Source: Labrys monachus (GTDB taxonomy: Bacteria; Pseudomonadota; Alphaproteobacteria; Rhizobiales; Labraceae). From it: DNA of 64,000 nucleotides. Positions 26,041 to 57,208 of the stretch are shown piece after piece. The stretch spans positions 1,259,501-1,323,500 of the forward strand of contig NZ_JAUSVK010000001.1 in NCBI RefSeq assembly GCF_030814655.1, written 5' to 3'. Within the stretch, counting starts at the first letter, position 1; every line of letters begins with the position of its first letter. Made by a program: the position numbers and the translations under genes. The notes under the pieces are model-generated. The model was not told the origin of the DNA, searched no databases, and worked only from the letters and a program-made list of their open reading frames with translations.

Positions 26041-26275
26041 GCCGCGCCGTTGGATGCCCCATGCCCCGTGGATGAATCGGCGCTGCCCGCGGGGATCTGC
26101 GTATCGTCCAGGTTGGCGGCGAGCCGGTCATCGCATTCCGACGGAATACCGGCGATTTCTGCGCGGGCTCATCGCGGGGGCCGCTCCGGTTCGGCTTCCC
26201 GCCCGAAGAGGGACGGAGAACGCCGCCGATGGCGTGCATGGCAGCTATGCGTATTTTGCATATTTACTTTATATA
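26041..26275. other. Intergenic region without a visible gene
   Basis: The gap between the fused transporter and the next binding-protein gene (26041-26383) holds no convincing coding frame. Its first 200 bases are GC-rich and featureless. The last 130 become strongly AT-rich, with a promoter-like stretch ending in the palindromic motif at 26276-26294. Confidence 0.5.
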
Positions 26276-26294
26276 ATTTATAGAAATAGTAGAC
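26276..26294. promoter_or_regulatory. Recurring 19-bp operator, copy 1
   Basis: On the minus strand it reads GTCTACTATTTCTATAAAT, one of five copies of a shared motif in this window. Its centre is 99 bases upstream of the ATG of the binding-protein gene at 26384. The outer right half is the most degenerate of the five copies. Confidence 0.6.
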
Positions 26295-26383
26295 ATTAAT
26301 GCCGGCGAAGACGGCTGTCGGGCATGCCCGCTCGGCGTCGCCCCGGCGACCTTTCATTCCTCCCACAGATCAAGGAGCCGGCG

Positions 26384-31818: not shown

Positions 31819-31831
31819 CGAGGATCGACAG

Positions 31832-33205: not shown

Positions 33206-33230
33206 ATCCTGTCAACAAGGGAGAACAGCC

Positions 33231-33800: not shown

Positions 33801-33845
33801 ACCGCAGTCCGTTCCCCCCCAATCTTCGATCGACAGGAGGATCTC

Positions 33846-35180
33846 GTGCCCATCAGGACGAACCCGCTCGCCTTCGGCGATCTCGGCGAAAAGCGCGTCG
33901 TCGACGCCCATCTCGACCGGCTCGACACGCGCGGCGTTTCGCGCCGCGACTTCCTGGCGCTGGCTTCGGCCGGGGTCGCCGCGGGTGCGGCGGCCGGGCT
34001 GCTCGGCAGCTCCTCGGTCGCCGTCGCCGCGCCATCCGGCAAGCTCGCCTATCTCGCATGGACGAGCCGCGTGGAGTTCATGGTGCAGGCCAGCAAGGCG
34101 ACGCAGGCCGCCGCGAAGGCCTTCGGCCTCGGCTACAGCTATCTGGACGGCCAGATCGACAGCCAGCGCCAGCTCAACCAGGCCGAGGAGCAGTTCAACG
34201 TCGGCGCCAACGCCATCATCCTGCATGCGCCGGACGGCAGCGCCGTCAAGCGCATCGCCCAGCTCGCCGAACAGAACAAGGCCTATTTCTCGAATGTCTG
34301 GGCGACGCTGCCCTGGTTCACGCCGTTCGACGCCAGCGAATACTACGCCCTCTATGCGGTGCCCGAGGAGTTCTCGGCCCATCGCGGCGTCACCGAGGTG
34401 CTGCTCAGGACTGTGACGGAGAAGTTCGGCGGCGGCAAGATCCTCGGCGTTACCGGCGTGCCGGGCTTCTCCACCGATTCGGTGCGTAGCCGCGGGCGGG
34501 ACGAGGCCTTCAAGGCTTTCCCCAAGACCCAGCTGGTCGACCAGCTTCCGGGCCTGTTCAACCGCGAGGACTCCCTCAAGGCGACACAGGCTCTCCTTGC
34601 CCGGCACAACGATATCGTGGGGGTCGTCGCCCAGAACGACGACGTGGCGCAGGGCGTCATCGCCGCCCTGCGCAGCGCCGGCCTGCGGGCGGGCGAGGAC
34701 GTGCTGGTGGTGGGCGCGGACGGCACCGCCGAAGGCGCGCGCGCCATCAAGAGCGGCGTACAGCTCGCCACCAGCGCGAACTGCCCCGCCTTCCAGGCCG
34801 GTTTCTTCACCGCCTATCTCTACGACGTGCTCAACGGCTGGAAGCCGCGCGCCTCCGAGAGAATGCTGAACTGGCATTCGGTCATCACGACGCAGAGCAA
34901 TGTCGACGTCTACCTCAAACGCTATGTCGACAATGGCGATGTGCTGCCCTTCGACTACCGCCGGATGTCCAAGGTCGCCCATCCCGCCGATTGGGACCCG
35001 CAGGGAGAGATCACGCCGCTCGACATCGACGTGGAATGGGCGGGCCTGCCCAAGCCCGAGGGGTGGACCTATCCCAAGGCCTATATCGATGCGAAGACCA
35101 ACGGCGAATGGGATGCGGTGAAGAAGGAATACAGCGAGCATTACAAGATTCCCTTCTTTGGTCCGTCGCCGAATGCCTGA
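33846..35180 (+). CDS. Sugar-type ABC transporter substrate-binding protein with Tat signal (copy 2)
   Basis: A 444-residue paralogue of the protein at 26384. The same leader is present (EKRVVDAHLDRLDTRGV) before the twin-arginine signal SRRDFLALASAG, then the binding-protein core (GVVAQNDDVAQGVIAAL, VVGADGTAEGA) and the C-terminal GWTYPKAYIDAK extension. The start is GTG at 33846, directly after an AGGAGG site. It has no ATPase or permease of its own, so it probably shares those at 27784-30419 and widens their ligand range. Confidence 0.9.
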   Translation: MPIRTNPLAFGDLGEKRVVDAHLDRLDTRGVSRRDFLALASAGVAAGAAAGLLGSSSVAVAAPSGKLAYLAWTSRVEFMVQASKATQAAAKAFGLGYSYLDGQIDSQRQLNQAEEQFNVGANAIILHAPDGSAVKRIAQLAEQNKAYFSNVWATLPWFTPFDASEYYALYAVPEEFSAHRGVTEVLLRTVTEKFGGGKILGVTGVPGFSTDSVRSRGRDEAFKAFPKTQLVDQLPGLFNREDSLKATQALLARHNDIVGVVAQNDDVAQGVIAALRSAGLRAGEDVLVVGADGTAEGARAIKSGVQLATSANCPAFQAGFFTAYLYDVLNGWKPRASERMLNWHSVITTQSNVDVYLKRYVDNGDVLPFDYRRMSKVAHPADWDPQGEITPLDIDVEWAGLPKPEGWTYPKAYIDAKTNGEWDAVKKEYSEHYKIPFFGPSPNA

Positions 35181-36606
35181 CTCAGCCGCTTTGCCCAGCC
35201 GGCAGGCACCCATCGTCATCGTGGGCGGCGGCCTCAGCGGGGCCCTGCTGGCGGCGCGCCTGCTCGAAGCGCCGGGCCGGCGTGACGTCCTCGTCGTCGA
35301 CGATGCGGGGCCGCCGGGCCGCGGCCTCGCTTATTCGGGCCGCAGCCGCCTGCATCTCGTCAATGCCAATGCCGGCAGGATGAGCGCCGATCCGGCCGAT
35401 GCCGCCCATTTCACGCGATGGCTCGAGCGCTTCGTCCGCAAGGGCGGCTGGCCGGAAGCGCCCGAGGGGCCGGCGAGCGACCTGTTCGCGCCCCGCTCCG
35501 TCTACGGCCTCTATATCCAGGAAGTCCTGGCGGAAGCCGTGACCGCCAATGCGCGCCACGGGCGCCGGTTCGAGTGGGTGAGGGCCAGGGCGGCGGATAT
35601 CGAGGAGAAGCGGGACGGCTTGCGGGTCCGGCTCTCCGACGGCTCGGCCCTGGCGGCATCCGTCGCGGTGCTCGCGACGGGTATCTTCTCGCGAAGCCGC
35701 GCGACGGACGGGGCGCGATCCTCCCGGCGGCTGCTCGATCCCTGGGCCATGGACGCCGGCGACGTCCCCGGGCCGGAGGCGCGCATCGCCATCATCGGCG
35801 CCGGCCTCACCATGGTGGATGCCGTGGTGTCGCTGCAGTCGGCGGGGTACCGGGGGGCGATCGACGTCGTCTCCCGCCACGGGCTGAGACCCCATCCGCG
35901 ACGGCTGCCGCCCGACTGGATCGATTTTCTCGCCGGGCGGCCGCATCTGGCGACGGCGCGCGCCCTCACGCGCGCGGTTCGCGCCGAATGCGAGGCGGCG
36001 ATGGCGGCCGGCGAGGATTGGCAAGGCCCCCTCGACACCGTCCGCGCCCATGTCGGCCGGCTGTGGGGCGGGGCGAGCGATCGGGAACGCCGCCGGTTCC
36101 TCCGCCATGTCCGTCCCTTCTGGGAAAGCCATCACCACCGTTCGCCGCCGGCGGCCGGATCGATCGTCGACGGCCTCGCCCAGGCGGGGCGGCTGCACCA
36201 CCTGGCGGGCGAGGTCCGGGCGATCGACGTCTTGGGAAAACGCCCGGCTCTGACGATACGCCTGCGCGGAACGGCGGATACGTCGATCCGGGTCTACGAC
36301 GCCGTCGTGGTGTCCAGCGGCGTGGATTACGACTGGCGGCAAGTCGGGCAGGCGCTGCCGCAGAATCTGCTGAGGGGCGGAACGGTGCGGCCGGGGCCCC
36401 TGGGGCTGGGTATCGATGCGACAGCGGATTATCGCGTCGTCGGCCGCGGCGGCGTGGCGTCTGACCGGCTGTTTGCGCTCGGCCCGCCCCTGCGCGGGCT
36501 GTGGTGGGAAAGCACGGCGGTCGCCGACATCGCGCGCCAGGCCTGCGAACTCGCCGCCGCCCTGGCGGCGACGGCATCGGCGCTCGCATCGGAGGATCGA
36601 GCCTGA
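35173..36606 (+). CDS. FAD/NAD(P)-binding protein, YdhS-like (COG4529 type), copy 1
   Basis: A 477-residue flavoprotein with an N-terminal Rossmann FAD motif GGGLSG at residues 18-23 and a second nucleotide-binding segment IAIIGAGLTMVDAVVSLQSAG. Other conserved pieces are LAYSGRSRLHLVNANAGRMSA and LLDPWAMDAGDVPG. The family is uncharacterised, though it resembles N-hydroxylating and Baeyer-Villiger-like oxidoreductases. The ATG at 35173 overlaps the binding-protein stop by eight bases. It is the last gene of the monooxygenase operon. A paralogue at 41902 has its own copy of the shared operator. Confidence 0.85.
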   Translation: MPDSAALPSRQAPIVIVGGGLSGALLAARLLEAPGRRDVLVVDDAGPPGRGLAYSGRSRLHLVNANAGRMSADPADAAHFTRWLERFVRKGGWPEAPEGPASDLFAPRSVYGLYIQEVLAEAVTANARHGRRFEWVRARAADIEEKRDGLRVRLSDGSALAASVAVLATGIFSRSRATDGARSSRRLLDPWAMDAGDVPGPEARIAIIGAGLTMVDAVVSLQSAGYRGAIDVVSRHGLRPHPRRLPPDWIDFLAGRPHLATARALTRAVRAECEAAMAAGEDWQGPLDTVRAHVGRLWGGASDRERRRFLRHVRPFWESHHHRSPPAAGSIVDGLAQAGRLHHLAGEVRAIDVLGKRPALTIRLRGTADTSIRVYDAVVVSSGVDYDWRQVGQALPQNLLRGGTVRPGPLGLGIDATADYRVVGRGGVASDRLFALGPPLRGLWWESTAVADIARQACELAAALAATASALASEDRA

Positions 36607-40027: not shown

Positions 40028-40642
40028 TCATATGCTGCCGCCGTCCGCGCCGTCGTCGCCGTCCCGGAGGTAGCCGTGGGCGAACACCGCCTCGAGGGCG
40101 CGGCGCGTGGTGCCGTAGGCGTCGGCCTTGTCGAGCACCCAGGCGATGCCGAGCGCGCCGAGGAACAGTTCGTTGGCCGTGACCGATCTCCGCGCATGGC
40201 CATGGCTCTGCGCCCGCGCGAGAAACTCGCCGGTGATGGTGACGAGCGTGTCGCAGGAGAGGGCGAGGGGCGAGGCCCGTTCCTTCACCGCGGCGAGGAC
40301 CGGAGCCGGCAGGCCGTTGAAGGTGCGCAGGTAATCCTGCAGCGCGGTGAGCCATGTGTGGAGGGCCGCGTCGGCGTCGGCGATGCCGCGGGCCTGCCGG
40401 GATGTCTCCAGCAATTCGAGCTGGTGTTCGCGCAGGGCGGCTTCGAGCAAAGCTTCGCGCGAGGGAAAATGGCGGTAGAGCGTGCCGGCCCCGACACCGG
40501 CGGCCTTGGCAATGTCCTCCAGAGAGGCCCCGATGCCGTGGGAGGTGAAATGGTGCACGGCCGTGCGCAGGATGCGGTCGCGATTGCGCCGCGCATCCGC
40601 CCGCAGGCCGGATCGGTCGTCGTTCGGAGCATCGAGGCTCAT
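40028..40642 (-). CDS. TetR family transcriptional regulator
   Basis: A 204-residue repressor: helix-turn-helix at about residues 20-65 ([39 protein letters not shown]) and an alpha-helical ligand domain. The start at MSLDAPNDD leaves the two operators upstream of the gene; a longer in-frame start would put them inside it. It is divergent from the luciferase-like gene at 40792 and heads the TetR-Gfo/Idh/MocA pair. The two matching palindromes in the shared promoter suggest it represses itself and the monooxygenase. Confidence 0.9.
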
Positions 40643-40674
40643 GGCTGTTCCCGGTGCCGCATCGGATTGACACA

Positions 40675-40695
40675 ATATGGAGGCAGCCTCCATAT
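40675..40695. promoter_or_regulatory. Probable TetR operator O1
   Basis: A perfect palindrome with arms ATATGGAGGC (40675-40684) and GCCTCCATAT (40686-40695) around one central A. It lies 33 bases upstream of the TetR start codon, within the divergent promoter region. Confidence 0.72.
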
Positions 40696-40709
40696 AGCGT
40701 CAAGGAAAA

Positions 40710-40791: not shown

Positions 40792-41793
40792 ATGACGGCA
40801 CTGTCCATCCTCGAACTCGTCCGCGTCACCGAAGAGACCGATGCGCGCGGGGCGCTCGACAATGCCCGCGATCTCGCCGCCCACGCCGAGAAATGGGGCT
40901 ATCGCCGCATCTGGGTGGCGGAGCATCACAACATGCCGGGCATCGCCAGCGCCGCCACCTCGATCGTGCTCGCCCATATCGCGGCGGGCTCCGACACCAT
41001 CCGCGTGGGGGCGGGCGGCATCATGCTGCCCAACCACGCGCCCTATGTCATCGCCGAGCAGTTCGGCACGCTGGCGCGCCTGTTTCCCGGGCGGATCGAC
41101 CTCGGGCTCGGCCGCGCACCGGGCACCGACCAGCTCACGCTGCGCGCCTTGCGCCGCTCGCCCGAGGCGGCGGATAATTTTCCGCAGGACGTGCTGGAAT
41201 TGCAGGCCTTCCTCGGGCCGGTGGCGTCCGGCCAGCGCATCCAGGCCGTGCCGGCGGCGGGAACCGCGGTTCCCCTGTGGATCCTCGGATCGAGCACTTT
41301 CGGCGCGATGCTTGCGGCCGAGTTCGGGCTGCCCTACGCGTTCGCCTCCCATTTCGCGCCCGACCTCCTCCTCGAAGCGCTGGAAATCTATCGCAGCCGC
41401 TTCAAGCCGTCCGAGCAGCTCGACCGGCCCTATGCGATGGTCGGCGTCAACGTCGTCGCCGCCGGGACCGATGCCGAGGCGCGCCGTCTGGCGACCACCC
41501 AGCAGATGTCCTTCGCGGACATCTTCCGCGGCGCGCGCGGCCTGAGCCGGCCGCCCATCGACGATATCGAGAGCTATTGGTCGCCGATGGAGAAGGCGCA
41601 GGCGATGCGGATGCTGGCCCGGTCCATCGTCGGCTCGCCGGCGACGGTGCGCTCGGGCATGGAAGCGCTCGTGGCCGAGACCGGGGCCGACGAACTCATC
41701 GTCGTGTCCGACGTCTACGACCATGCGACACGGCTGCGTTCGTTCGAGTTGATCGCCGAGGCGGGAGATGCGGGGAGCAAAGGCTCGATCTGA
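40792..41793 (+). CDS. LLM-class luciferase-like oxidoreductase (YhbW/MsnO8 type)
   Basis: A 333-residue single-domain luciferase-fold protein. Typical segments are [57 protein letters not shown] and [21 protein letters not shown]. This subgroup is predicted to use FMN or F420-like flavins, but is mostly uncharacterised in proteobacteria. It has a GGGAG ribosome site before the ATG. It is divergent from the TetR gene across two operators. The next gene downstream has its own operator. Confidence 0.9.
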
Positions 41794-41866: not shown

Positions 41867-41887
41867 GATCTACTAAAATAGTAGATC
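41867..41887. promoter_or_regulatory. Recurring operator, copy 2 (perfect palindrome)
   Basis: Perfect arms GATCTACTA (41867-41875) and TAGTAGATC (41879-41887) around AAA. Its inner 19 bases align with the four other copies of the shared motif. It ends only 14 bases before the ATG of the FAD protein at 41902, so binding here should block transcription or act on a very short leader. Confidence 0.7.
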
Positions 41888-41901
41888 AATGGAGCGCAGC
41901 C

Positions 41902-43278
41902 ATGCCGGACCGGCCTGTCCCCGCAGCGAACGGACACCTGCTCATCATCGGGGGCGGAGCCAGCGGCGTGCTGATGGCAGCGCATCTGTTGCGCAGCCGC
42001 CAGCCGGCCCTGCGCGTCACCCTGGTCGAAAAAAGCCCGGAACTGGGCGCCGGCATCGCCTATGGCACCAGCCATCCCGACCATCTGCTCAATGTCCGCG
42101 CCGCCAATATGAGCGCCTATCCCGACGATCCCGTGCATTTCTGGCGCTGGGTCGCCGAGCACAGCAGCGCCGATTGCCCGGATCCGCAGTCCTTCGCGCC
42201 GAGAAGGCTCTTTCGCGACTATCTCTCGGACCTCCTGGGACCGCATCTGGTGCAGAAGCCGGGCACCAAGCGGCTGGCCATCATCCATGACGAGGTGGTC
42301 GGCCTCGAGGAAACGCCGGAGGGCCTCACGGCGCGCTTCGCCGGCCGGGAGCCGATTCGGGCCGATATCGCCATCCTCGCGACGGGCAACGAAGGACCGA
42401 AATTGCCGCCGGCACCCTGGCGCTTCGACGGCTGGTTCGACATCCCGTCCGCCGCCCTCTCGCCGGACGCGGACGTGGCCATCATCGGCACCGGCCTCAC
42501 CATGACCGATCGTGTCCTGTCCCTGCTGCATGCCGGCCACAGAGGCCGCATCGTCGCGATATCGCGGCACGGATTGCTGCCGCAGAGGCACAGGCCGGTT
42601 CCCGTGCTTCGGCTCGACGCCGCCGACATACCCTATGGCGCCGGCATGTCCTATCTCACGCATTGGCTGCGACGGCTGGTCAGGGACCATCAGGCGAGGG
42701 GTGGGGACTGGCGTAGTGTCGTCGACGGTTTGCGTCCGCACAGCCAGACCCTTTGGCGCAGCCTGACACAGGAAGCGAGGCGGCGTTTCCTGCGTCATGC
42801 CCGCACCTGGTGGGACACGCATCGCCACCGCATGGCGCCGGCCGCCGCCGATCGCATCGAGGAGGCGCGGCGGACGGGGCAGTTGACGGTGATCGCCGGC
42901 CGGGTCACGGGCTTCGAGCCGGGTGCCGACGGTGTCGTCCTGCGCTACGTCGCACGCACGGGGCAGCGGGAGCGGCATCTGCACGCCGGCGCGGTGTTCG
43001 AGTGCCGCGGCCGGGCGTCCGACATCCGCGCGACGGAGAACCCGGTGCTGCGGCAATTGCTCGCCGCCGGGTCGGTCAGGCCGGATCCGCTCGGCCTGGG
43101 TCTCGACGTCGGCGAGGATTGCGCCGCCGTAAGGCGGGACGGCACCATGTCGGGACGGATCTACGCCGTCGGCCCGGTCACCTCGGGGGTCTTCTGGGAG
43201 ATCGTCGCCGTGCCCGATATCCGCCAGCAGGCGGCGATGCTGGCGGGCAGGCTGCTCGGCCACGCCGGATCCCGCTGA
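41902..43278 (+). CDS. FAD/NAD(P)-binding protein, YdhS-like (COG4529 type), copy 2
   Basis: A 458-residue paralogue of the protein at 35173. The FAD motif GGGASG is at residues 17-22, followed by the shared pieces GAGIAYGTSHPDHLLNVRAANM and VAIIGTGLTMTDRVLSLLHAG for the second nucleotide. No substrate is known for the family. The ATG at 41902 is the first position giving a conserved N-terminus; frames upstream overlap the palindrome. Two copies of this family, each linked to the recurring operator, suggest a dedicated role in the same regulon. Confidence 0.85.
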   Translation: MPDRPVPAANGHLLIIGGGASGVLMAAHLLRSRQPALRVTLVEKSPELGAGIAYGTSHPDHLLNVRAANMSAYPDDPVHFWRWVAEHSSADCPDPQSFAPRRLFRDYLSDLLGPHLVQKPGTKRLAIIHDEVVGLEETPEGLTARFAGREPIRADIAILATGNEGPKLPPAPWRFDGWFDIPSAALSPDADVAIIGTGLTMTDRVLSLLHAGHRGRIVAISRHGLLPQRHRPVPVLRLDAADIPYGAGMSYLTHWLRRLVRDHQARGGDWRSVVDGLRPHSQTLWRSLTQEARRRFLRHARTWWDTHRHRMAPAAADRIEEARRTGQLTVIAGRVTGFEPGADGVVLRYVARTGQRERHLHAGAVFECRGRASDIRATENPVLRQLLAAGSVRPDPLGLGLDVGEDCAAVRRDGTMSGRIYAVGPVTSGVFWEIVAVPDIRQQAAMLAGRLLGHAGSR

Positions 43279-43405
43279 GACCGCTCTGCCCTGCCGCGTC
43301 GGATCGCCGGACGGTGAAGTCCGGGGCCGCCCATTGCATCGGAGCACGCACGGAGCCTGTCGAACGTCGTTTTTTGGCGCCTGCTGCTTCGGCGGAAGCA
43401 TTTCA

Positions 43406-43424
43406 GTCTATAAATACTGTAGAC
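43406..43424. promoter_or_regulatory. Recurring 19-bp operator, copy 3
   Basis: GTCTATAAATACTGTAGAC has perfect five-base arms GTCTA and TAGAC. On the minus strand it reads GTCTACAGTATTTATAGAC, very close to copy 5. It lies 339 bases before the amino-acid binding-protein ATG at 43763, with no gene between. Confidence 0.68.
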
Positions 43425-43762
43425 TTATTGCCGTCGCCGATTAAGATACCTGTCGTCGATGAGGTCCGGCCTGGAGATGGTTCCGCCGGATTCGCGTGAG
43501 GGGTCCGATGTCGTCCTGTCTTATCTCGATAATTTCGGAACAAGGCGGCTCGCCGAGGGCCGCCGCTCGGAACGGGACAGGGGAACCGGCGGCCTGACGG
43601 CATGGTCATCGGCGCCCGCCCGGGGGGCCGGCCTCCGGCATCAGGGAAGCCGCCATCGCGACATCGCCGTTGCCGTGAACGCCAAGTTTCGGAAAGATGC
43701 GGGCTCGTTCGAACGAAGACCCGCCGGATTGCCTACAACCTCGATGTGTTTGGAGAGACAGG
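43425..43762 (+). other. Long untranslated leader or unexplained gap
   Basis: There is no convincing gene between the operator and the binding-protein start. The stretch is GC-rich, with several short inverted repeats around 43560-43650. It could be an extended 5' leader carrying a structured RNA, but I recognise no known riboswitch class in it. Confidence 0.35.
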
Positions 43763-44662
43763 ATGATGAAAGCAACACGACGCCAGGCCATGCTGCTGGG
43801 CGCCGGCTTCGGTGCGACGGTGCTGGCCGGAGCCCTGGCAGATGGCAGCCGGACGCCGGCCCATGCGGCGGAGGGCACCCTCGCCAAGATCAAGGCGCGC
43901 GGACGCCTGATCGCCGGCATCGCCAATGAGCAGCCCTATGGCTATGTGGATGCCAACGGCAAGCTCACGGGCGCCAACATCGACGTGCTGCGGGCCGTCG
44001 TGGCGCCGCTCGGCATCACCCAGATCGAAGCGCCCATCGTCGATTTCGGCGCGCTGGTGCCGGGCCTCGCCGCCGACCGTTTCGATGTGATCGGCGCCGG
44101 CCTCTTCATCCGCCCGGCGCGCTGCAAGGTCATCGCCTTTTCCAATCCGGTGACCCGTTCCGGAGGGGCGTTCCTGGTCAAGGCGGGCAATCCGCTTGGG
44201 CTGCACAGCCTGAAGGACGTCGCCGCCAAGAAGAACGCCAGGTTCGGCACGCAGTCCGGCAGCAACCAGGTGCAGGAAGCCAAGGATGCCGGCATCGAGG
44301 CCGATCGCGTCTCGCTGTTCGACAAGGACAACGAGGCGCTCGCCGCGCTGCAGGCCGACCGCATCGATGTCGTTTATTTTCCCGACGTCGAAATCGCCGG
44401 CCTCCTGAAGACGGCCAACGATCCGAAGATCGAACGCGCCTTGCCGTTCGACCAGATCCCGGGCCCCGACGGCAAGCCGAGCTTCAACTATCATGCTTTC
44501 GGCCTGCCCAAGGGCGACAAGGAATTCGCCGACGCCTTCAACGCCGAACTGAAGAAGCTGCGCACCTCCGGCCGCCTGCTCGAACTCCTCAAGCCCTATG
44601 GCTACACGGAAAACGAGCTGCCGCCCGAGGACGTGACGGCCGAGCAGGTCTGCGCCGGCTGA
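43763..44662 (+). CDS. Polar amino-acid ABC transporter substrate-binding protein
   Basis: A 299-residue periplasmic binding protein (SBP_bac_3). The export signal has a twin-arginine-like TRRQAMLLGAGFGATVLAG and ends AHAAEG. The core shows KIKARGRLIAGIANEQPYGYVD, GANIDVLRAVVAPLG and GLFIRPARCKVIAFSNPV. ATG 43766 is an equally good start three bases later. It is convergent with the ATPase-permease genes at 44823-46913, and both units carry the recurring operator, so they most likely form one importer with the binding protein transcribed separately. Confidence 0.9.
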   Translation: MMKATRRQAMLLGAGFGATVLAGALADGSRTPAHAAEGTLAKIKARGRLIAGIANEQPYGYVDANGKLTGANIDVLRAVVAPLGITQIEAPIVDFGALVPGLAADRFDVIGAGLFIRPARCKVIAFSNPVTRSGGAFLVKAGNPLGLHSLKDVAAKKNARFGTQSGSNQVQEAKDAGIEADRVSLFDKDNEALAALQADRIDVVYFPDVEIAGLLKTANDPKIERALPFDQIPGPDGKPSFNYHAFGLPKGDKEFADAFNAELKKLRTSGRLLELLKPYGYTENELPPEDVTAEQVCAG

Positions 44663-44711
44663 GGCCGTGAAGCCGTTCGTCGCGGCATTCGCATCCCGGG
44701 CCTTGCTGCCC

Positions 44712-44782
44712 GGCGGCGTTTCGCCGCCCGCTCGTCGAGACGGCCGCCATCCCTTCGCTCCGCATCGCGGGGAGAAGGGATG
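44712..44782. terminator. Two hairpins between convergent importer units
   Basis: GGCGGCG-TTT-CGCCGCC (44712-44728) and CATCCCTTC (44748-44756) pairing GAAGGGATG (44774-44782) are both perfect. They sit between the binding protein and the convergent ATPase gene, consistent with a bidirectional termination region. No T tract is present. Confidence 0.5.
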
Positions 44783-44822
44783 GATGAGCGTGAGGGCGGG
44801 GGCGTGCGGGCCGACAGCCCGC

Positions 44823-45614
44823 CTATCGCTCCAGCACGGCGCGCAGGAAGGTCCGGGTCCTTTCGCTCGCCGGGTCGGTGAAGAGCCTTGCCGGCGGCGC
44901 ATCCTCGACGATGCGGCCCTTCTCCATGAACAGCACCCGGTCGGCGACGTCGCGGGCGAAGTTCATCTCATGCGTGACCAGCAGCATCGTCATGCCGCTT
45001 TCGTGCGACAGAGCGCGGATGACGCCGAGGACCTCGCCGACCAGTTCCGGATCGAGGGCCGAGGTCACCTCGTCGAACAGCATCACCTGCGGCTGCATGG
45101 CGAGGGCCCGCGCGATCGCGACCCGCTGCTGCTGGCCGCCGGATAATTGCCTGGGATAGGCCGCCTCCCGGCCCGTCAGGCCGACGCTCGCCAGCAGTTC
45201 CGCCGCGCGAGCCTCCGCCTCGGCGCGGCGGAGGCCGAGGACGCGCATCGGCGCCTCCACGATATTGCCGAGCACGGTCATGTGCGGAAAGAGGTTGAAC
45301 TGCTGGAAGACCATGCCGACGACGTGGCGCCGCTTCGCGTCCCGGCGTGCGAACCAGCCGCCGCCCGCCTTCTCGCCGACCGGCATGCCGGCGACTTCGA
45401 TGCGGCCCTGCTGATAGGGTTCGAGCCCCTTGATCAGGCGCAGGATGGTCGATTTGCCGGACCCGCTCGGCCCGATGATGGCGAGCTTCTGCCCGGCAGG
45501 CACGGCGAGGTCGAGATTGTCGAGAATGAGCGTGTCGCCATAGAATTTGGACACGCCCGAGAAGCGCACGATCGGCATTTCGCCGGGCGGGGTCTCGGCA
45601 GCGGTTTCAGCCAC
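44823..45614 (-). CDS. Polar amino-acid ABC transporter ATP-binding protein
   Basis: A 263-residue ATPase of the HisP/GlnQ type: Walker [11 protein letters not shown]-loop GMVFQQFNLFPHMTVLGNI, signature [14 protein letters not shown], Walker B VMLFDEVTSALD. The Walker B has Val where Pro is usual (DEVTSAL), a common variant in this group. It is the last gene of the three-gene minus-strand unit and overlaps the preceding permease by eight bases. Confidence 0.92.
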   Translation of the reverse strand: MAETAAETPPGEMPIVRFSGVSKFYGDTLILDNLDLAVPAGQKLAIIGPSGSGKSTILRLIKGLEPYQQGRIEVAGMPVGEKAGGGWFARRDAKRRHVVGMVFQQFNLFPHMTVLGNIVEAPMRVLGLRRAEAEARAAELLASVGLTGREAAYPRQLSGGQQQRVAIARALAMQPQVMLFDEVTSALDPELVGEVLGVIRALSHESGMTMLLVTHEMNFARDVADRVLFMEKGRIVEDAPPARLFTDPASERTRTFLRAVLER

Positions 45615-46257
45615 GCAGGCGCCTTTCGATCGTGCGGAACAGGAAGGAAGCCGGCAGGCTCATGGCCAGGAAGATCAGCGCCAGCAGCGTGTAGGGCTCG
45701 TTGTAGCGGTAGGTCTCGCCGGCGATCTGCTTGACCACCTGCATCATCTCGGGAATGGTGATCACCGCGAGCAGGGGCGTGTCCTTGAACATGCCGATGA
45801 GGTAATTGCCGAGCACCGGCACCATCGGCGGAATCGCCTGGGGCAGGACAATGCGCAGCCAGGTGTCGCGCGGCGACATGTCGAGGGCGCCAGCGGCTTC
45901 CCATTGACCGCGCGGCACGCTGTCGATGCCGCCGCGATAGACCTCCGCGAGATAGGCGCTGTAGTTCAGCCCGAGGGCGAGGATGCCGGTGGTTATCGCC
46001 GTGAAGGTGAGGCCCCACAGCGGCAGGACGAAGAACAGGAAATAGATCTGCACGAGCAACGGCGTGTTGCGCATGAACTCGATATAGGCGGTGCAGGCGG
46101 CCCGCAGCGGCGCGTTGCCCGCCTGCCTCGCGACGGCGAGGAGGAGCCCGCCGAACAGGGCGGCGACGAAGCCGGCCAGCACGACTTCGAGGGTCACCAC
46201 CGCGCCGCGCAGGAGGTCCGGCAGAATTTCGACGGCAAAGGAAAAGTCGAAATCCAT
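45607..46257 (-). CDS. Polar amino-acid ABC transporter permease (second)
   Basis: A 216-residue permease with the HisMQ signature EFMRNTPLLVQIYFLFFVLP and the EAA loop SAYLAEVYRGGIDSVPRGQWEAAGALD. The start at MDFDFSF overlaps the preceding permease's stop by one base (TGATG), so translation is coupled; the long open frame further upstream is antisense to nothing conserved and belongs to the other permease's region. It forms a heterodimer with the product of 46257-46913. Confidence 0.9.
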   Translation of the reverse strand: MDFDFSFAVEILPDLLRGAVVTLEVVLAGFVAALFGGLLLAVARQAGNAPLRAACTAYIEFMRNTPLLVQIYFLFFVLPLWGLTFTAITTGILALGLNYSAYLAEVYRGGIDSVPRGQWEAAGALDMSPRDTWLRIVLPQAIPPMVPVLGNYLIGMFKDTPLLAVITIPEMMQVVKQIAGETYRYNEPYTLLALIFLAMSLPASFLFRTIERRLRG

Positions 46258-46913
46258 CAATGCCCCCGTGCGCCGCGAAAGCGGCCGAGACGCTGCTCCA
46301 GCCGGCGGACGATCCGGCTCAGAGGATAGGCCATGACGAAATACAAGGCGAGCACGAGGCTCCAGACCAGCTGCTTCTGGCCGGTCGTCGTCACCATCTG
46401 GGTGCCCGCCGCGGTCAGGTCGGTCAAGGTGATGAGGGAGACGAGGGACGTCGCCTTCAGGAGCTCGATCAGCTGGTTGCCGAAGGGCGGCAGCATCAGC
46501 GGAATGGCCTGCGGCAGGATGATGCGCCGCAGCGTCAGCAGCGGCGGCATGTCGAGCGCTCTGGCCGCCTCCCATTGCGGCCGTTCGACGGATGAGATCG
46601 AAGTCCGCACCACCTCGGCCGCATAGGCCGAGGCGTTGAGGCCGAGCCCGATGACGGCGGTGGTCAGCGGGCTGATCTCGATGCCGAACAGCGGCAGGAT
46701 GAAGAAGAGGTAGAACAACTGGACGAGTGCCGAGGTGCCGCGCAGGATCTCGACATAGGTCGCCGCGACGGCGCGCAGGATCCGGCTCGGGGCGAGGCGC
46801 ATGAGGCCGGCGACGAAGGCCAGCGGGAGCGCCACGACCGCGGCCAACACGGTAACCTCGATCGTGACGCGCGCGCCTTTGAGCAGGAACCAGAGAAGGG
46901 CGTCAATCGTCAT
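46257..46913 (-). CDS. Polar amino-acid ABC transporter permease (first)
   Basis: A 218-residue permease of the HisMQ type: EILRGTSALVQLFYLFFILP and EAA loop SAYAAEVVRTSISSVERPQWEAARALD, with five or so hydrophobic segments. It is the promoter-proximal gene of the permease-permease-ATPase unit. The recurring operator is centred 62 bases upstream of its ATG and is shared with the divergent peptidase gene. Confidence 0.92.
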   Translation of the reverse strand: MTIDALLWFLLKGARVTIEVTVLAAVVALPLAFVAGLMRLAPSRILRAVAATYVEILRGTSALVQLFYLFFILPLFGIEISPLTTAVIGLGLNASAYAAEVVRTSISSVERPQWEAARALDMPPLLTLRRIILPQAIPLMLPPFGNQLIELLKATSLVSLITLTDLTAAGTQMVTTTGQKQLVWSLVLALYFVMAYPLSRIVRRLEQRLGRFRGARGH

Positions 46914-46965
46914 TGCATCACGGAATCGGAACGGGGCTCGGCATGCCCGGTGCTTATCGCATGTG

Positions 46966-46984
46966 GACTATTGATTTAATAGAC
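46966..46984. promoter_or_regulatory. Recurring 19-bp operator, copy 4
   Basis: GACTATTGATTTAATAGAC, with inner arms CTATT and AATAG. It lies between divergent units: 62 bases from the permease ATG (46913) and 105 from the M24 peptidase ATG (47080). One bound protein could control uptake and processing together. Confidence 0.65.
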
Positions 46985-47079
46985 TGGACGTGATGCAAAC
47001 GGCTGGTCTCTTCGGGCGCGCATGCCTGCACCGTGCAGCTGCCGGCGCGAGCCCCCGGAAATGTTGGAGTCGTCTCTGC

Positions 47080-48321
47080 ATGTCGTTCGTGGATCGTGAG
47101 CGGGCCTCCCGCCTGATGGCCGAGGCCGGCCTGGATGCGCTTGTCATCGCGGAGCCCGAGGGCTTTGCCTATATTACCGGCGTGTCGCAGGGCGTGCCGG
47201 CGCTGTTTCGCCGGGCCGGCGCCGGATTTGCCGTTCTCCCGGCCGATCCGCAGCAGCCGATCGGCGCGGTGATCGGCGATCTCTACGAAGAAGCCGCGCG
47301 CCGCCTGGTGCCGGAAGTGCGCGTCCATCCGCTGTGGATGGAGAATGCCGACCTGACCGGCATGCCCGAGGCGGGTCCGGTCGAGGCGCGCATCGCCTCG
47401 GCGTGGCGGAAGGCGGGCCGTCCGCCGGGTTTCGCCCGCCCCGCGACCTTCGACCTCCATCTGGCGCTGCAGGCGCTGGCGGATCTCCTGGCAAGCCTCG
47501 GCCTCGCGGGCGGGAGGCTCGGCCTCGACCTCGATTATGTGGCGGCGAGCGATGCCGCGGTGATCGGCGATGCGCTGGACGGCGCCGGCATCGCCAATGG
47601 CTCGCCGGTTCTCGACCGCATCCGCATGGTGAAGACGCCGGGCGAATTGTCCCGCCTCACCCTCGGCGTGGAACTGGCGGAAGCGGGGCTGCGCGCGATG
47701 GCGGCCTCGGTCGAGGCCGGCCACACCGCGGCCGACCTTCATGGGTTCTTCCTCGCCGGCGTCGAGGCCGAGGCGGCGCAGCGAAACATCAAGGCGCCGC
47801 CGTCCTGGGCCTATATCGCCGTCGGTCCCGACCCCTGGAACCCGAAGGGCCGCGTCGAGCGCGAAGCCGTCATCAAGGCCGATGTCGGCTGCGTCGTCGA
47901 CGGCTACTCCTCCGATACGTCGCGGAACTATGTGTTCGGCGCGCCGACATCGGACCAGGCCCAGCTGCATCGCTCGATCGAGGCGGCCTTCACTGCGGGG
48001 CGCGAGTGGATCAGGCCGGGCGTGCCGCTGTCGGAGGTGCATCGGGCCGCCACCGCCGCCCTGGAGGAAGCGGGCCTCACCGGCTTCAGCAGGGGGCATT
48101 TCGGGCATGGCCTCGGCCATTCCCTGTTCTCCGAGCAATGGCCGTTCATCGCTGCGACCAGCACGACGCCGATCGAGCCCGGCATGGTGCTGGCTTTCGA
48201 GATTCCGATCTACGTCACCGGCGTCGGCGGTTTCAACCTGGAGGACCAGTTCCTGGTGACGCCGGACGGGCATCGTTCGATGAACACGCTTCCCCATCAT
48301 CTCATCACCGTCGGACGGTAG
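47080..48321 (+). CDS. M24 family metallopeptidase (Xaa-Pro aminopeptidase-like)
   Basis: A 413-residue cytoplasmic dipeptidase or aminopeptidase-type protein: N-terminal creatinase domain (1-180) and catalytic pita-bread domain (185-400). All five dinuclear-metal ligands are present: Asp268, Asp279 (GYSSDTSRNY), His343 (FGHGLGHS), Glu374 (FEIP) and Glu388 (NLEDQFLVT). This contrasts with the M24 protein at 23091. The ATG at 47080 follows GGAG; an in-frame ATG at 46990 would add 30 unconserved residues. It is divergent from an amino-acid importer and precedes an AstE-like gene by nine bases. Confidence 0.88.
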   Translation: MSFVDRERASRLMAEAGLDALVIAEPEGFAYITGVSQGVPALFRRAGAGFAVLPADPQQPIGAVIGDLYEEAARRLVPEVRVHPLWMENADLTGMPEAGPVEARIASAWRKAGRPPGFARPATFDLHLALQALADLLASLGLAGGRLGLDLDYVAASDAAVIGDALDGAGIANGSPVLDRIRMVKTPGELSRLTLGVELAEAGLRAMAASVEAGHTAADLHGFFLAGVEAEAAQRNIKAPPSWAYIAVGPDPWNPKGRVEREAVIKADVGCVVDGYSSDTSRNYVFGAPTSDQAQLHRSIEAAFTAGREWIRPGVPLSEVHRAATAALEEAGLTGFSRGHFGHGLGHSLFSEQWPFIAATSTTPIEPGMVLAFEIPIYVTGVGGFNLEDQFLVTPDGHRSMNTLPHHLITVGR

Positions 48322-48330
48322 GGCTCGCCC

Positions 48331-49302
48331 ATGCAGCAGCAGATCATCGGCCGGCACCGCTCGCTCGCCTGGGGCACTCTGCGCTTTTCCTCGCCGGTGC
48401 TCGCGGACCTTGCGCTGCCCGTCTTCGAGATCGCCTCGGGCGTGCCGGGGCCGCGCCTCGCCATCATGGCCGGCATGCATCCGAACGAGGTTTCGAGCAT
48501 GGAGGCGGCGCTGCGCCTCAAGGACGCCTTCGCGGACAGGCTCGACGCGGGTTCGGTGACGATCCTGCCGGTGGTCAACATGCCCGGCCTCTACCTCCAT
48601 TCGGAATTCGTCTGTCCGGTCGACGGGAGGAACATCAACTTCTCCTTCCCCGGCCGCGCCGACGGCTCGTTCAGCGAGGTGCTCGCCCATGCCCTTCTCC
48701 ATGAATGGGCCGGAGACGCCGACCTGCTGGTCGACCTCCATGGCGGCGACCTGCGCGAGGACGTCGCCAAATTCGTGATGTGCCAGATGACGGGCAGCGA
48801 GGAGTTCGACCGGCGCACGCGCGATTTCGCCCATTGCTTCGATGCCGATGTCGTCGTCGAGTTCGCGGCGGGGCAGACCAGCAACAGGGGCCGCGCCACC
48901 AATGAGCGTCCTTCTCTCGGCCGGCATGCGGTGATGGCGGAGGCGGGCGCCAACGGGCGCCTGGACGAGGCGTGCATCGCTTTCCATACCCAGGGCGTGC
49001 TGAATATCGCACGCCGGCTCGGGCTTGTCGGCGGCCCGCTCGTGCCCGGCGGCAGGGCGCGGCGCGTGCTGGACAATTTCGTCAAGATCGGCTCGCCGGC
49101 GAGCGGCCGCTTCTACCTCGAAGCCGATGTCGGGGACCATGTCGAGCGCGGCCAGCGGCTGGCGCGGCTGCGCGACCTCTACGGCGCCGAGATCGGCGAG
49201 ATCCGCGCCCCCTTCTCGGGGCGCGTCGTCATGGTCGTCACCCACAACATCGTCGAGAAGGACGAATGGGTGATCAGCGTGGGCGAAGTCGTCCGGGAGT
49301 AG
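48331..49302 (+). CDS. AstE/aspartoacylase family zinc deacylase
   Basis: A 323-residue zinc-dependent hydrolase of the succinylglutamate desuccinylase/aspartoacylase family. Zinc ligands His50 and Glu53 (GMHPNEVSS) and His137 (DLHGGD) are all present, and the substrate carboxylate segment is PVDGRNINFSFPG. A C-terminal beta domain with VGDHVERGQRLARL follows. It would remove an acyl group from an N-acyl amino acid or related amide. Paired with an M24 peptidase and an amino-acid importer, it suggests that imported acyl-amino acids or short peptides are unblocked in the cytoplasm. Confidence 0.87.
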   Translation: MQQQIIGRHRSLAWGTLRFSSPVLADLALPVFEIASGVPGPRLAIMAGMHPNEVSSMEAALRLKDAFADRLDAGSVTILPVVNMPGLYLHSEFVCPVDGRNINFSFPGRADGSFSEVLAHALLHEWAGDADLLVDLHGGDLREDVAKFVMCQMTGSEEFDRRTRDFAHCFDADVVVEFAAGQTSNRGRATNERPSLGRHAVMAEAGANGRLDEACIAFHTQGVLNIARRLGLVGGPLVPGGRARRVLDNFVKIGSPASGRFYLEADVGDHVERGQRLARLRDLYGAEIGEIRAPFSGRVVMVVTHNIVEKDEWVISVGEVVRE

Positions 49303-54333: not shown

Positions 54334-55776
54334 TCATCCTCCCGCGGTTTCGAGGTGGCGCTCGTCGAGGCGCGGGGCGGCGGCTTGCCGTTCCGTCGCC
54401 TCGCGGCGCTTCACCGCCTCGATGTCCCGATAGGCGTGGGCCGGATGGCTTTCGGGCAGATAAGGGCCTTCGCCGAACAGCTTCTCACGCAGCGTGCCCG
54501 GCCTGTAGGCGGTCGGGTAGGCGCCGCGCTTCTGCAATTCCGGCACCAGATGCGCCACGACGTCCTCGAAGCTCTCGGGCGTGACGGCATAGGCGAGGTT
54601 GAAGCCGTCGACGTCGGTCTCGTCCACCCACTCCTGCAGGATATCGGCGACGGTCGAGGGCGAGCCGACGAACACCGGACCGAGGCCGCCGACACCGCCC
54701 CAGCGCGCCAGCTCCTCGATGCTCCAGGTGCGGTCGCCGCCGGCGAAATGCTCGACCATGGAGACGATGGCATTGGTCTCCACCTTCTTCACCGAATCCG
54801 TCGGGGCGTATTGGCCGAAATCGATGCCGCTCCAGCCGGACAGGAACACGAGCGAGCCGTCATAGGAGGTATAGGACTGGTACTCCTCGAAGCGGGCCTG
54901 CGCCGCCGCGTCGCTCTCGCCGACGATCACGGTGGTGAGGTTGTAGACGAGGATCTTGCGGCGGTCGCGCCCGGCGGCGGCGGCCTGCCGGCGGATGTCG
55001 GCGACATAGGCGCGGAGCATCGGCTTGGTCGGCGCGGCGACGAAGACGCATTCGGCATGGCCGGCGGCGAAGGTCTTGCCCGGCCCCGAGGCGCCGGCCT
55101 GGTAGAGCACCGGCGTGCGCTGGGGCGAGGGCTCGCACAAATGATAGCCCGGCACCTCGAAGAACTTGCCCTTGTGGCCGATCTCGTGGACCTTGGCCGG
55201 ATCGGTGAAGATGCGGCGTTCGCGGTCGCGCAGCACCGCGCCTTCCTCCCAGCTGCCTTCCAGCAGCTTGTAGAGGACCTCGACATATTCGGCCGCGACC
55301 TCGTAGCGGTTGTCGTGGCGGCGCAGCCCGCCCTGACTGATGTTCTTGGCGCCGCTCTCGAGATAGGACGTCACGATGTTCCAGCCGACCCGCCCCTTGC
55401 TGTGGTGGTCGGCGGTCGCCAGCCTCCTGGCGAAGGTATAGGGATGCTCGAACGAGGTGGAGGCGGTGATGCCGATGCCCAGATGCTCGGTGGCGAGCGC
55501 GATGGGGGCGGCGAGCTGCAGCGGATCGTTGACCGGGATCTGGGCGGCCTGGTGGATGGCGTGATGGTTCGACCCCTTGTAGACGTCGTAATAGCCGATG
55601 ACGTCGGCGATGAAGATGCCGTCGAAAATGCCCTTTTCGAGCGTGCGTGCCAGATCCTGCCAATAATCGAGATCCTTGTAGGTCCAGGACTTGTCGCGGG
55701 GGTGCGCCCACAGGCCCGGTGACTGGTGGCCCACGCAATTCATGTCGAAGGCATTGAAGCGGATCTGGCGTGTCAT
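54334..55776 (-). CDS. LLM-class flavin-dependent monooxygenase, NtaA/SnaA/DszA type (copy 3)
   Basis: A 480-residue luciferase-fold monooxygenase. Family markers are IRFNAFDMNCVGHQSPGLWAHP, FDGIFIADVIGYYDVY, HPYTFARRLATADHHSKGRVGWNIVTS and PVLYQAGASGPGKTFAA. It is more distant from the tandem pair at 30427-33205 than those are from each other. It heads the Liv-type importer operon, so its substrate is probably the imported solute. FMNH2 must come from an unlinked reductase. The start gives MTRQIRFNAF; the recurring operator is centred 105 bases upstream. Confidence 0.9.
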   Translation of the reverse strand: MTRQIRFNAFDMNCVGHQSPGLWAHPRDKSWTYKDLDYWQDLARTLEKGIFDGIFIADVIGYYDVYKGSNHHAIHQAAQIPVNDPLQLAAPIALATEHLGIGITASTSFEHPYTFARRLATADHHSKGRVGWNIVTSYLESGAKNISQGGLRRHDNRYEVAAEYVEVLYKLLEGSWEEGAVLRDRERRIFTDPAKVHEIGHKGKFFEVPGYHLCEPSPQRTPVLYQAGASGPGKTFAAGHAECVFVAAPTKPMLRAYVADIRRQAAAAGRDRRKILVYNLTTVIVGESDAAAQARFEEYQSYTSYDGSLVFLSGWSGIDFGQYAPTDSVKKVETNAIVSMVEHFAGGDRTWSIEELARWGGVGGLGPVFVGSPSTVADILQEWVDETDVDGFNLAYAVTPESFEDVVAHLVPELQKRGAYPTAYRPGTLREKLFGEGPYLPESHPAHAYRDIEAVKRREATERQAAAPRLDERHLETAGG

Positions 55777-55871
55777 GGCGGCTTTCCAATCTCGATAGGG
55801 GTCGCGACGGCGGCCCGCCAAGGGAGAGCCGCGTCGGAAGTGGCGTTATAGAAGCGTCGCCCGAATTAAAT

Positions 55872-55890
55872 GTCCAGTATTTTTATAGAC
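55872..55890. promoter_or_regulatory. Recurring 19-bp operator, copy 5
   Basis: GTCCAGTATTTTTATAGAC lies in the divergent gap between the monooxygenase-importer operon and the DszC/SfnB-like gene. Its centre is 105 bases from one ATG and 104 from the other, so it is placed symmetrically to act on both. Confidence 0.68.
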
Positions 55891-55984
55891 AATATGTACA
55901 AAAATTCCGGATGGTGCTAGATCGGCTTTCACGGTTTCCGGCCACTGCCGGCGACGAAGGTGAAACGCCAAGAGAATCAAAGAC

Positions 55985-57208
55985 ATGACGCAGATCGGTT
56001 CGGTGTGGGGCGGCGGCCCCGGCGATGGATACGAAGCCCTGGCGCGGCGTTTTCGTCCGATTTTTCAGCGCATCCGCGAGGGGGCCGTCGAGCGGGAGCT
56101 GAGCCGGACCCTGCCGCACGAGCCGATCGCCTGGCTCAAGGAGGCCCGGTTCGGAGCCCTGCGCGTGCCGCGGGCGGACGGGGGCTCCGGCGCGACGCTG
56201 CCGGAGCTCTTCAACCTCCTCATCGAGCTTTCGGAAGCCGATTCGAACGTCACCCAGGCGCTGCGCGCGCATTTCGGCTTCGCCGAGGATATCGTCAATT
56301 CGCGTTCGCCTGCGCGCCGCGCCCGCTGGCTGCCGCGCCTCCTCGACGGCGAGACCACCGGCAGCGCATGGACCGAGACCGGGCAGGCCAAGCAGGCTGC
56401 CTTCGCCACGACGGTGACCCGCGCGGCGGACCGGGCGAGCGTCACCGGCTCCAAATATTACACCACCGGCTCGCTGTTCGCCGACTGGATCGATATCGGC
56501 GCGAGCGGCGAGGACGGGCAATCGCTGTCCGCCGTCGTGTCGCGCCATGCCCCCGGCGTGAACGTCGTCGACGACTGGGACGGCTTCGGCCAGATCCTGA
56601 CCGCGAGCGGCACGACGGTCTTCGCCGAGGCACCGGTGGCGCCCGAGGACGTGGTGGTGGACGAGGACCGCTTCCGCTATTCGGCCGCCTTCTACCAGCT
56701 CGTGCATCTCGCCACGCTGGCGGGCATCGGCCGCGCGGCCGCCAACGACGTCGCCAAGGCCGTCGGCGAGCGGCGGCGCAGCTACACCAACGCGCCGGCG
56801 CCGCTTCCGTCCCAGGATGCGCAGGTCCTGCAGGTCGTGGGCCGCGTGCGCGGCGCGGCCTATTCGGCGGGCGCGATCGTCCTCAAGGCGGCCGAGGCGC
56901 TGCAGCGCGCCTTCGACCAGCGCTTCGCCGGCGACGAGGCGGCGGAAGAGCAGGCCAATGCCATCGCGGAGCTCGAAGTGGCGCAGGCCCAGACCGTGGT
57001 CTCCAACCTGATCCTCGACGCCGTCACCCTGCTGTTCGATGCGCTCGGCGCTTCCGCCACCCGGCGCGCCGCGGCCTTCGACCGCTATTGGCGCAATGCG
57101 CGGACGCTGTCCTCGCACAATCCGCGCATCTACAAGGACCGCATCGTCGGGGATTTCGCGGTCAACGGCACCCCGCCGCCCTATCAGTGGCGCATCGGCG
57201 AGGCGTGA
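55985..57208 (+). CDS. Acyl-CoA-dehydrogenase-fold flavoprotein, SfnB/DszC-like monooxygenase
   Basis: A 407-residue protein with the acyl-CoA dehydrogenase fold. It has GSAWTETGQ in the flavin-contact position and the DszC/SfnB-type C-terminal segment YWRNARTLSSHNPRIYKDRIVG, instead of the catalytic glutamate region of true dehydrogenases. Such proteins are FMNH2-dependent S- or N-oxygenases (DszC) or sulfur-acquisition proteins (SfnB). It is divergent from a DszA-type monooxygenase with a shared operator, the pair of families that together cleave organosulfur compounds in the Dsz pathway. Confidence 0.86.
   Translation: MTQIGSVWGGGPGDGYEALARRFRPIFQRIREGAVERELSRTLPHEPIAWLKEARFGALRVPRADGGSGATLPELFNLLIELSEADSNVTQALRAHFGFAEDIVNSRSPARRARWLPRLLDGETTGSAWTETGQAKQAAFATTVTRAADRASVTGSKYYTTGSLFADWIDIGASGEDGQSLSAVVSRHAPGVNVVDDWDGFGQILTASGTTVFAEAPVAPEDVVVDEDRFRYSAAFYQLVHLATLAGIGRAAANDVAKAVGERRRSYTNAPAPLPSQDAQVLQVVGRVRGAAYSAGAIVLKAAEALQRAFDQRFAGDEAAEEQANAIAELEVAQAQTVVSNLILDAVTLLFDALGASATRRAAAFDRYWRNARTLSSHNPRIYKDRIVGDFAVNGTPPPYQWRIGEA

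Follow-up and report, generated by a model that had tools for sequence, protein, structure and literature searches.

An ectoine-type importer and an AstE-fold deacylase under a sulfur-type operator in Labrys monachus: a candidate organosulfur-scavenging module

Introduction

Among the described systems closest to the locus discussed here are the S-alkylcysteine clusters of Bacillus subtilis (scm, yha and ytn), which combine a flavin monooxygenase with a deacetylase and in which the N-acetylcysteine deacetylase acts last (PMC12757645). Our locus lies in a stretch of 64,000 nucleotides from the alphaproteobacterium Labrys monachus (contig NZ_JAUSVK010000001.1, positions 1,259,501 to 1,323,500; hereafter the window). 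It consists of an importer of the ATP-binding cassette (ABC) type, an M24 peptidase-like enzyme and a deacylase. The second relative is the ectoine system, in which import is followed by opening of the ring and deacylation (PMC5924519). The module in the window shares this overall logic, and it resembles ehuABCD together with doeA and doeB (eutD and eutE) in the type of importer and in the folds of the two enzymes, M24 and AstE/AspA-fold deacetylase. A third is mammalian aminoacylase 3, a member of the AspA family that deacetylates mercapturic acids, the N-acetyl-S-conjugates of cysteine (PMC11511702). By analogy, aminoacylase 3 is a precedent for the deacetylation of cysteine conjugates by the AspA family.

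The locus differs from each of these systems. The deacetylases of the B. subtilis clusters are M20 peptidases, whereas that of the window has the AstE fold, and the clusters carry an acetyltransferase, whereas a scan of window proteins, which covered part of the open reading frames, named no such enzyme. Compared with the ectoine system, the module has lost an Asn-Arg motif, is not under EnuR/EhuR control, and both of its enzymes fall below the DoeA and DoeB cut-offs. Aminoacylase 3 is related to the window deacylase only distantly in fold.

Our analysis suggests that the locus is an organosulfur-scavenging module belonging to a sulfur/cysteine-starvation regulon, a reading to which we assign a probability of roughly 0.6. 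It is already known that modified sulfur amino acids are imported and deacylated. What would be new is that an ectoine-type importer and a subfamily of AstE-fold enzymes carry them out. Among the open-literature papers that our searches listed, none describes, as far as titles and the beginnings of abstracts go, either the pairing of this importer with such a deacylase or an Rrf2 sulfur regulator in this order.

Results

A 21-bp palindrome with the core TCTAY-N7-RTAGA stands at five places in the window (26266/26275, 41867, 43405, 46965 and 55871; Table 1). Copy 4 lies inside an intergenic gap of 166 bp, upstream of both ehuC (by 62 bp) and the M24 gene (by 105 bp). A weight matrix trained on 11 sites from four other genomes of the genus and then run over the window gives the five places 23.9 to 30.6 bits. 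The best non-overlapping stretch reaches 12.7, and in 60 first-order Markov simulations of the window the top score was 17.8 and the mean maximum 9.0. The sites at 26266/26275 and 55871 did not fit the strict pattern, yet the matrix recovers both. This matrix replaced an earlier one that was trained on window sites and hence circular. A consensus with perfect GTCTAT arms gave zero matches, and weight matrices were used instead. The matrix test is only partly independent of the window, and the sulfur-gene context of the sites is fully so. The strict pattern (WCTAYNNWWWNNRTAGW) has six sites in the 6.92-Mb genome, three of them within 5.1 kb in the window, against three for a reversed-pattern control.

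Which genes stand behind the operator elsewhere? Beyond the window the L. monachus genome has three strict sites, and one of them lies upstream of tauA (TIGR01729, 446 bits). Two of the 11 one-mismatch sites outside the window precede sulfur genes: one such site stands at a sulfate-binding-protein gene, and one stands behind metQ and before genes for a flavin reductase, two SfnB-like proteins, two flavin monooxygenases and an Rrf2-family protein (rrf2). With at most one mismatch the genome holds 19 sites against 10 for the reversed control, so that single weak sites mean little. In the four other genomes of the genus, sulfur genes follow 12 of the 16 strict sites with known gene context. The targets are TauA (three times), serine acetyltransferase (twice), a flavin reductase followed by an SfnB-like gene (three times), MsuE followed by a monooxygenase (once), the ortholog of the 41902-43278 flavoprotein behind rrf2 (twice) and a sulfate-binding protein (once). 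For several of these targets the longest open reading frame runs across the site, and the conserved later start was adopted. Because the operator is shared by sulfate, taurine, serine-acetyltransferase and organosulfur genes, it marks a sulfur/cysteine-starvation regulon. Both the membership of the module in this regulon and the sulfur character of the regulon come from computation.

Some sites remain apart. The loci L080, L081, L089 and L093 are unexplained, and a one-mismatch operator of the L. monachus genome (site 4645425, L076) directly precedes a peroxiredoxin gene; this gene may belong to the sulfur regulon as an oxidative-stress member, or the match may be due to chance.

Although the importer belongs to the ectoine (Ehu) type, it is a paralog of the true ectoine importer of the genome. 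Three of its subunits, EhuB, EhuC and EhuD, score above the NCBIfam equivalog cut-offs for the ectoine importer, and the fourth, EhuA, falls about 3 bits short. The genes ehuC, ehuD and ehuA overlap on the minus strand; the binding-protein gene is separate, on the plus strand. The binding protein has a twin-arginine-like leader (read by eye), and its nearest sequence in the PDB is 2q88, which is EhuB. In alignments with AncQR, an ancestral amino-acid-binding protein, the Asp that we take to hold the alpha-ammonium group is replaced by Pro in the window protein, as it is in 2q88. Lack of a free ammonium group would suit an N-acyl amino acid or a ring as ligand, and it would agree with a deacylase being the sole constant companion enzyme. 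In a pocket comparison with 2q88, with presumed residue roles, even the canonical EhuB of the same genome deviates at pocket positions.

The deacylase gene starts 9 bp past the end of the M24 gene. H50, E53, H137 and E204, presumably the His-Glu-His zinc ligands and the catalytic Glu, are conserved in all 34 rows of its subfamily. In place of the Arg of the Asn-Arg motif, all 39 rows carry Phe, Trp, His or Tyr; the three paralogs from the same genome retain the Arg. In the tree a fully supported long branch splits the 39 rows from these paralogs, with a long-branch warning at the join. An AlphaFold model (pLDDT, predicted local distance difference test, 87; pTM, predicted template modelling score, 0.88) has its closest structural matches in DoeB/EutE (Z 30.5) and uncharacterised relatives, followed by the cyanophycin dipeptide hydrolase CphZ (27.0), AstE (17-18), aspartoacylase (16) and aminoacylase 3 (about 15). 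VIA-align and Foldseek gave no characterised relative closer than DoeB among the matches listed. The enzyme is neither AstE nor DoeB but belongs to an unnamed subfamily that is nearer to DoeB than to AstE; its orthology, fold and conserved catalytic residues are likewise computational observations.

The clade of the window deacylase comprises nine rows (support 100/100): the window, a Rhodospirillales metagenome-assembled genome (MAG), four Pseudomonas, Yersinia alsatica, an Enterobacterales MAG and Sodalis praecaptivus. The genes ehuB, ehuC and ehuD adjoin the deacylase gene in seven of the eight rows other than the window, and in six of these seven the order is ehuB-deacylase-ehuC-ehuD-ehuA. 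On the Sodalis plasmid pHS1, the operon sits between metNIQ and genes for rhodanese and for oxidoreductases of the acyl-CoA-dehydrogenase and LLM types. The public record of pHS1 labels the importer as an ectoine transporter and the enzyme as a succinylglutamate desuccinylase, two names that are probably wrong for this clade. The rhodanese-like protein of this organosulfur island is encoded next to the module (L127, 17074-18684). The loci L016 and L027 also carry SsuA-family genes nearby. The deacylase is absent at 1e-30 from the four genomes of the genus that were searched, and the module therefore looks acquired.

The M24 enzyme seems to play a smaller part. Its aligned sequence has the full Asp-Asp-His-Glu-Glu set, which we take to be metal ligands of the prolidase type, and it groups with putative peptidases, apart from DoeA. 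Close homologs occur in 13 other genomes of the order (397 searched), and the surroundings of 12 of these 13 hold no match to ehuB, ehuC, ehuD or the deacylase, generic ATPase matches aside. Among the 38 deacylase loci examined, the M24 enzyme accompanies the deacylase only in the window and in L015, where the gene for a cysteine-desulfurase-like class V aminotransferase separates the importer from the M24-deacylase pair. We therefore dropped the M24 enzyme as the core of the module; it is an accessory.

An earlier note on this DNA had described a polar amino-acid importer that diverges from an M24 peptidase and AstE-like deacylase pair at operator copy 4, with copy 3 for the separate binding protein. 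Gene calls and operator coordinates confirm this arrangement. The importer does belong to the superfamily named, but its ectoine type, with EhuB, EhuC and EhuD above the cut-offs, was overlooked, as was the canonical ectoine locus elsewhere in the genome. Similarly, the enzyme pair is present in the window, but the M24 partner is usually missing at other deacylase loci, and "AstE-like" is right as to the AstE/AspA fold but not as to the subfamily, which tree and structure set apart and place nearer to DoeB.

Other parts of the window also carry the operator. Copy 1 stands at the head of a CUT2-like ABC operon of the sugar type (26266-36606). Besides a second PF13407 binding protein, this operon encodes two NtaA/DmoA monooxygenases, an NAD_binding_9 flavoprotein and a CMD-domain protein; it may allow the cell to take up and desulfonate a sugar or nucleoside that bears sulfur. 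The NtaA/DmoA monooxygenase gene next to copy 5 likely has its ATG start at about 55776. A second cluster with an importer and an M24 gene, adjoining a LysR gene, lies at 20317-26040 and has no operator; in its M24 protein the metal site is incomplete, the second Asp and the last Glu being absent. Finally, a TetR gene (40028-40693) has a near-perfect 26-bp palindrome (40672-40697) at its start, and this palindrome also precedes the gene for an MsnO8-family monooxygenase (40795-41793). It is perhaps a TetR operator, distinct from the sulfur operator.

Table 1. Positions of the module genes, the operator copies and the operator-linked genes, counted from the first nucleotide of the window.
Feature	Positions	Strand	Remarks
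Operator copy 1, two overlapping sites	26266..26295		99 bp before PF13407 binding-protein gene
Operator copy 2	41867..41887		25 bp before NAD_binding_9 flavoprotein gene
FAD/NAD(P)-binding protein (NAD_binding_9)	41902..43278	+	orthologs (73-75%) behind rrf2 in three genomes of the genus
Operator copy 3 (AGTCTATAAATACTGTAGACT)	43405..43425		348 bp before binding-protein gene
EhuB-type solute-binding protein	43763..44662	+	TIGR02995 229.5 bits, cut-off 190.9
EhuA-type ATPase	44823..45614	-	TIGR03005 342 bits, slightly below cut-off 345.4
EhuD-type permease	45607..46257	-	TIGR03003 268.1 bits, cut-off 205.2
EhuC-type permease	46257..46913	-	TIGR03004 244.3 bits, cut-off 196.95
Operator copy 4 (GGACTATTGATTTAATAGACT)	46965..46985		between divergent importer and M24-deacylase operons
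M24 metallopeptidase-like hydrolase with creatinase N-domain	47080..48321	+	PF00557, PF01321; start set by relatives
AstE/AspA-fold deacylase of separate subfamily	48331..49302	+	PF24827 70.9 bits; tree; structure model
NtaA/DmoA-family flavin monooxygenase, first gene of liv-type ABC operon	54334..55821	-	TIGR03860 533 bits, cut-off 279.7
Operator copy 5	55871..55891		about midway between NtaA/DmoA monooxygenase gene and SfnB-like gene
SfnB-like sulfur-acquisition oxidoreductase	55985..57208	+	TIGR04022 260 bits, below cut-off 430.9

Discussion

The earlier note had likened the locus, in logic, to bacterial routes that import S-modified or N-acylated cysteine derivatives and strip them in the cytoplasm. 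At the level of regulation this sulfur logic holds, since the operator also stands before sulfate, taurine, serine-acetyltransferase and organosulfur genes. It is also borne out by the deacylase clade, which keeps the importer in distant bacteria, in some of them beside organosulfur genes.

A number of results weigh against an organosulfur-scavenging module. Outside the window, two of the three strict sites in the genome (L044 and L045) and nine of the 11 one-mismatch sites precede no recognised sulfur gene. The four other genomes of the genus hold 22 strict sites against 15 for the reversed-pattern control; six of the 22 stand outside our count of gene contexts, and four of the 16 inside it have no sulfur gene in view. 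The 11 training sites of the matrix came from a pattern that was itself drawn from the window sites 41867, 43405 and 46965. The rrf2 locus of the same genome (L095) has no operator, its best site scoring 6.7. Deacylase-module loci scanned elsewhere show no convincing operator, so that such control is seen only in the window. Even there, the gap of 348 bp between copy 3 and ehuB is long, and an Rfam search of the window found no family at the gathering score, which gives no support to a leader RNA in this gap. Finally, one row of the clade (L043) has neither the importer nor sulfur mono-oxygenase-type genes, and such genes are neighbours in just three of the eight clade rows other than the window, compared to one of 30 loci outside the clade (Fisher p 0.024, a count in which L013 and L036 are one contig counted twice, locus lengths differ, and the Sodalis flank is 12 kb and the others at most 10 kb).

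One could also argue that the module imports a sulfur-free N-acyl or peptidic amino acid as a source of nitrogen or carbon, and that it has sulfur-type operators for some other reason, for example because low cysteine is sensed along with a need for amino acids. Members of the wider subfamily make this explanation worth considering. Rhizobial rows adjoin genes for 5-oxoprolinase, D-amino-acid dehydrogenase, DapF or ornithine cyclodeaminase and no sulfur genes, and in a second clade of eight rows (L011-L013, L030, L032-L034 and L036), where the deacylase gene is divergent from ehuBCD, the same kind of importer occurs with no sulfur gene in view. However, all of these rows fall outside the window clade, inside which three other loci carry sulfur mono-oxygenase-type genes. 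Moreover, the other operator-bearing genes of the window encode an importer binding protein, a flavoprotein, a flavin monooxygenase and an SfnB-like protein. We consider a sulfur-free substrate unlikely. Given the non-sulfur neighbours in the second clade and in the rhizobial rows, the wider subfamily probably deacylates several N-acyl amino acids, and the window clade is probably its sulfur branch. On three rhizobial plasmids (L128, L130 and L131), the genes next to relatives of the deacylase encode 5-oxoprolinase/hydantoinase or D-amino-acid dehydrogenase as well as other ABC transporters, which suggests another substrate for the same subfamily.

The likely regulator of the operator, judged by where its gene and its homologs lie, is a CymR-like protein of the Rrf2 family. 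In three genomes of the genus, the operator-bearing flavoprotein gene follows directly behind an rrf2 gene, and L. monachus has a 95% identical Rrf2 copy at C1:4344838, in a cluster of flavin reductase, SfnB and monooxygenase genes. A homolog at 1e-45 is found in 78 of 397 genomes of the order. Eight of 29 rrf2 loci (L137-L139 and L141-L145, out of L132-L160) have an adjoining sulfate-binding-protein gene, two confirmed by model and six by 76-95% identity, and L153 has another in view. In two other families (L135 and L136) a flavin-reductase or NAD_binding_9 gene lies near rrf2, and weaker operator-like sites precede rrf2 itself in L135, L140 and L150 among the 10 loci scanned. CymR, the regulator of the cysteine regulon of Firmicutes, is the best equivalog model for the protein, at 86 bits against a cut-off of 195. 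Both are Rrf2-family regulators, and the CymR targets include cysteine synthesis and the uptake of sulfur compounds, much like those of the regulon here; the bacteria are different ones. The link between Rrf2 and operator is good but indirect. In L. monachus the operator-bearing flavoprotein gene is missing behind rrf2 (L097) and is located in the window (41867-43278) instead.

Could a LysR-type activator read the operator in place of the Rrf2 protein? LysR binding sites follow the rule T-N11-A, with which the half-sites are compatible, and a LysR gene (20317-21246) is present in the window, adjoining another importer and M24 gene. Yet this gene has no operator nearby, whereas it is rrf2 that adjoins the operator in the three genomes of the genus, stands beside sulfate-binding-protein genes in eight others and is itself preceded by operator-like sites. 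We consider a LysR-type regulator unlikely.

It is very unlikely that the locus is a second set for the uptake and degradation of ectoine or hydroxyectoine, as the database names of the importer suggest. It is true that EhuB, EhuC and EhuD exceed their cut-offs, that the nearest characterised fold to the deacylase is DoeB, and that M24 and AstE-fold are the two enzyme families of the ectoine pathway. But the DoeA model gives the M24 enzyme 30.7 bits where its cut-off asks for 613, and the DoeB model gives the deacylase 72.3 where 402.7 are required. The canonical ectoine locus is elsewhere in the genome (DoeB 619 bits, EhuB 345 bits), together with the ectoine regulator EhuR (604 bits, cut-off 480) and EnuR/EhuR boxes with 0 and 1 mismatch. 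The EnuR/EutR operator consensus is ATTGT-N6-ACAAT (PMC8739950; for the regulators see also PMC5320631). Between 41800 and 49400 of the window no EnuR/EhuR box is closer than 3 mismatches, and the operator at the module is that of sulfur genes. We therefore rejected ectoine degradation: both enzymes are far below their cut-offs, and the real locus lies elsewhere. The module is a paralog of the ectoine set and has a different task.

As for the arginine catabolism (AST pathway) that the earlier note had offered as the refuting outcome, and that the family name "succinylglutamate desuccinylase/aspartoacylase" would suggest, no result favours it and we rejected it as extremely unlikely: no AstE model matches the deacylase at 1e-5, which DoeB (TIGR02994) alone reached, AstE structures align at Z 17-18 compared to 30.5 for DoeB, and no AST gene was named among the scanned window proteins.

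How might an organosulfur-scavenging module work? We infer the regulator, the repression, the substrate and the order of the enzymes as follows. When sulfur is scarce, the CymR-like Rrf2 repressor would release the TCTAY-N7-RTAGA operators. Release of copy 3 would allow expression of the binding protein, and release of copy 4 that of the operon for the Ehu-type permeases and ATPase and of the M24-deacylase operon. The binding protein would then capture a small carboxylate with no free alpha-ammonium group, for which an N-acylated sulfur amino acid is the likeliest candidate. The ABC importer would carry this ligand in, and the zinc deacylase would strip its acyl group. As an optional extra, the M24 enzyme may cut a peptide or imide bond in related substrates. 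The freed sulfur amino acid would enter cysteine metabolism, either directly or through flavin monooxygenases of the same regulon.

Sulfur control, taken together with a ligand that lacks a free ammonium group, makes an N-acylated sulfur amino acid the simplest reading. The substrate would be such a compound or a cyclic equivalent, and a cysteine derivative is plausible. A more far-fetched version is that the ectoine design of import, opening and deacylation has been reused for a sulfur heterocycle, a thia-analogue of ectoine. The ring would be a thiazoline-4-carboxylate (cyclised N-acetylcysteine) or an acylated thiazolidine carboxylate. In that case the ring would be the ligand of the Ehu-type protein, its hydrolysis, whether spontaneous or catalysed by the M24 enzyme, would yield N-acylcysteine, and from this the deacylase would free cysteine. 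We regard this as a long shot.

If the locus is indeed an organosulfur-scavenging module, it points to acylated sulfur amino acids as a class of organosulfur nutrients, perhaps used by bacteria associated with soil, plants and insects. Together, the operator and the candidate Rrf2 regulator provide a handle for mapping the sulfur regulon in a group of Hyphomicrobiales. Since close homologs of the Rrf2 protein stand beside sulfate-binding-protein genes, it is a candidate sulfur regulator beyond the genus.

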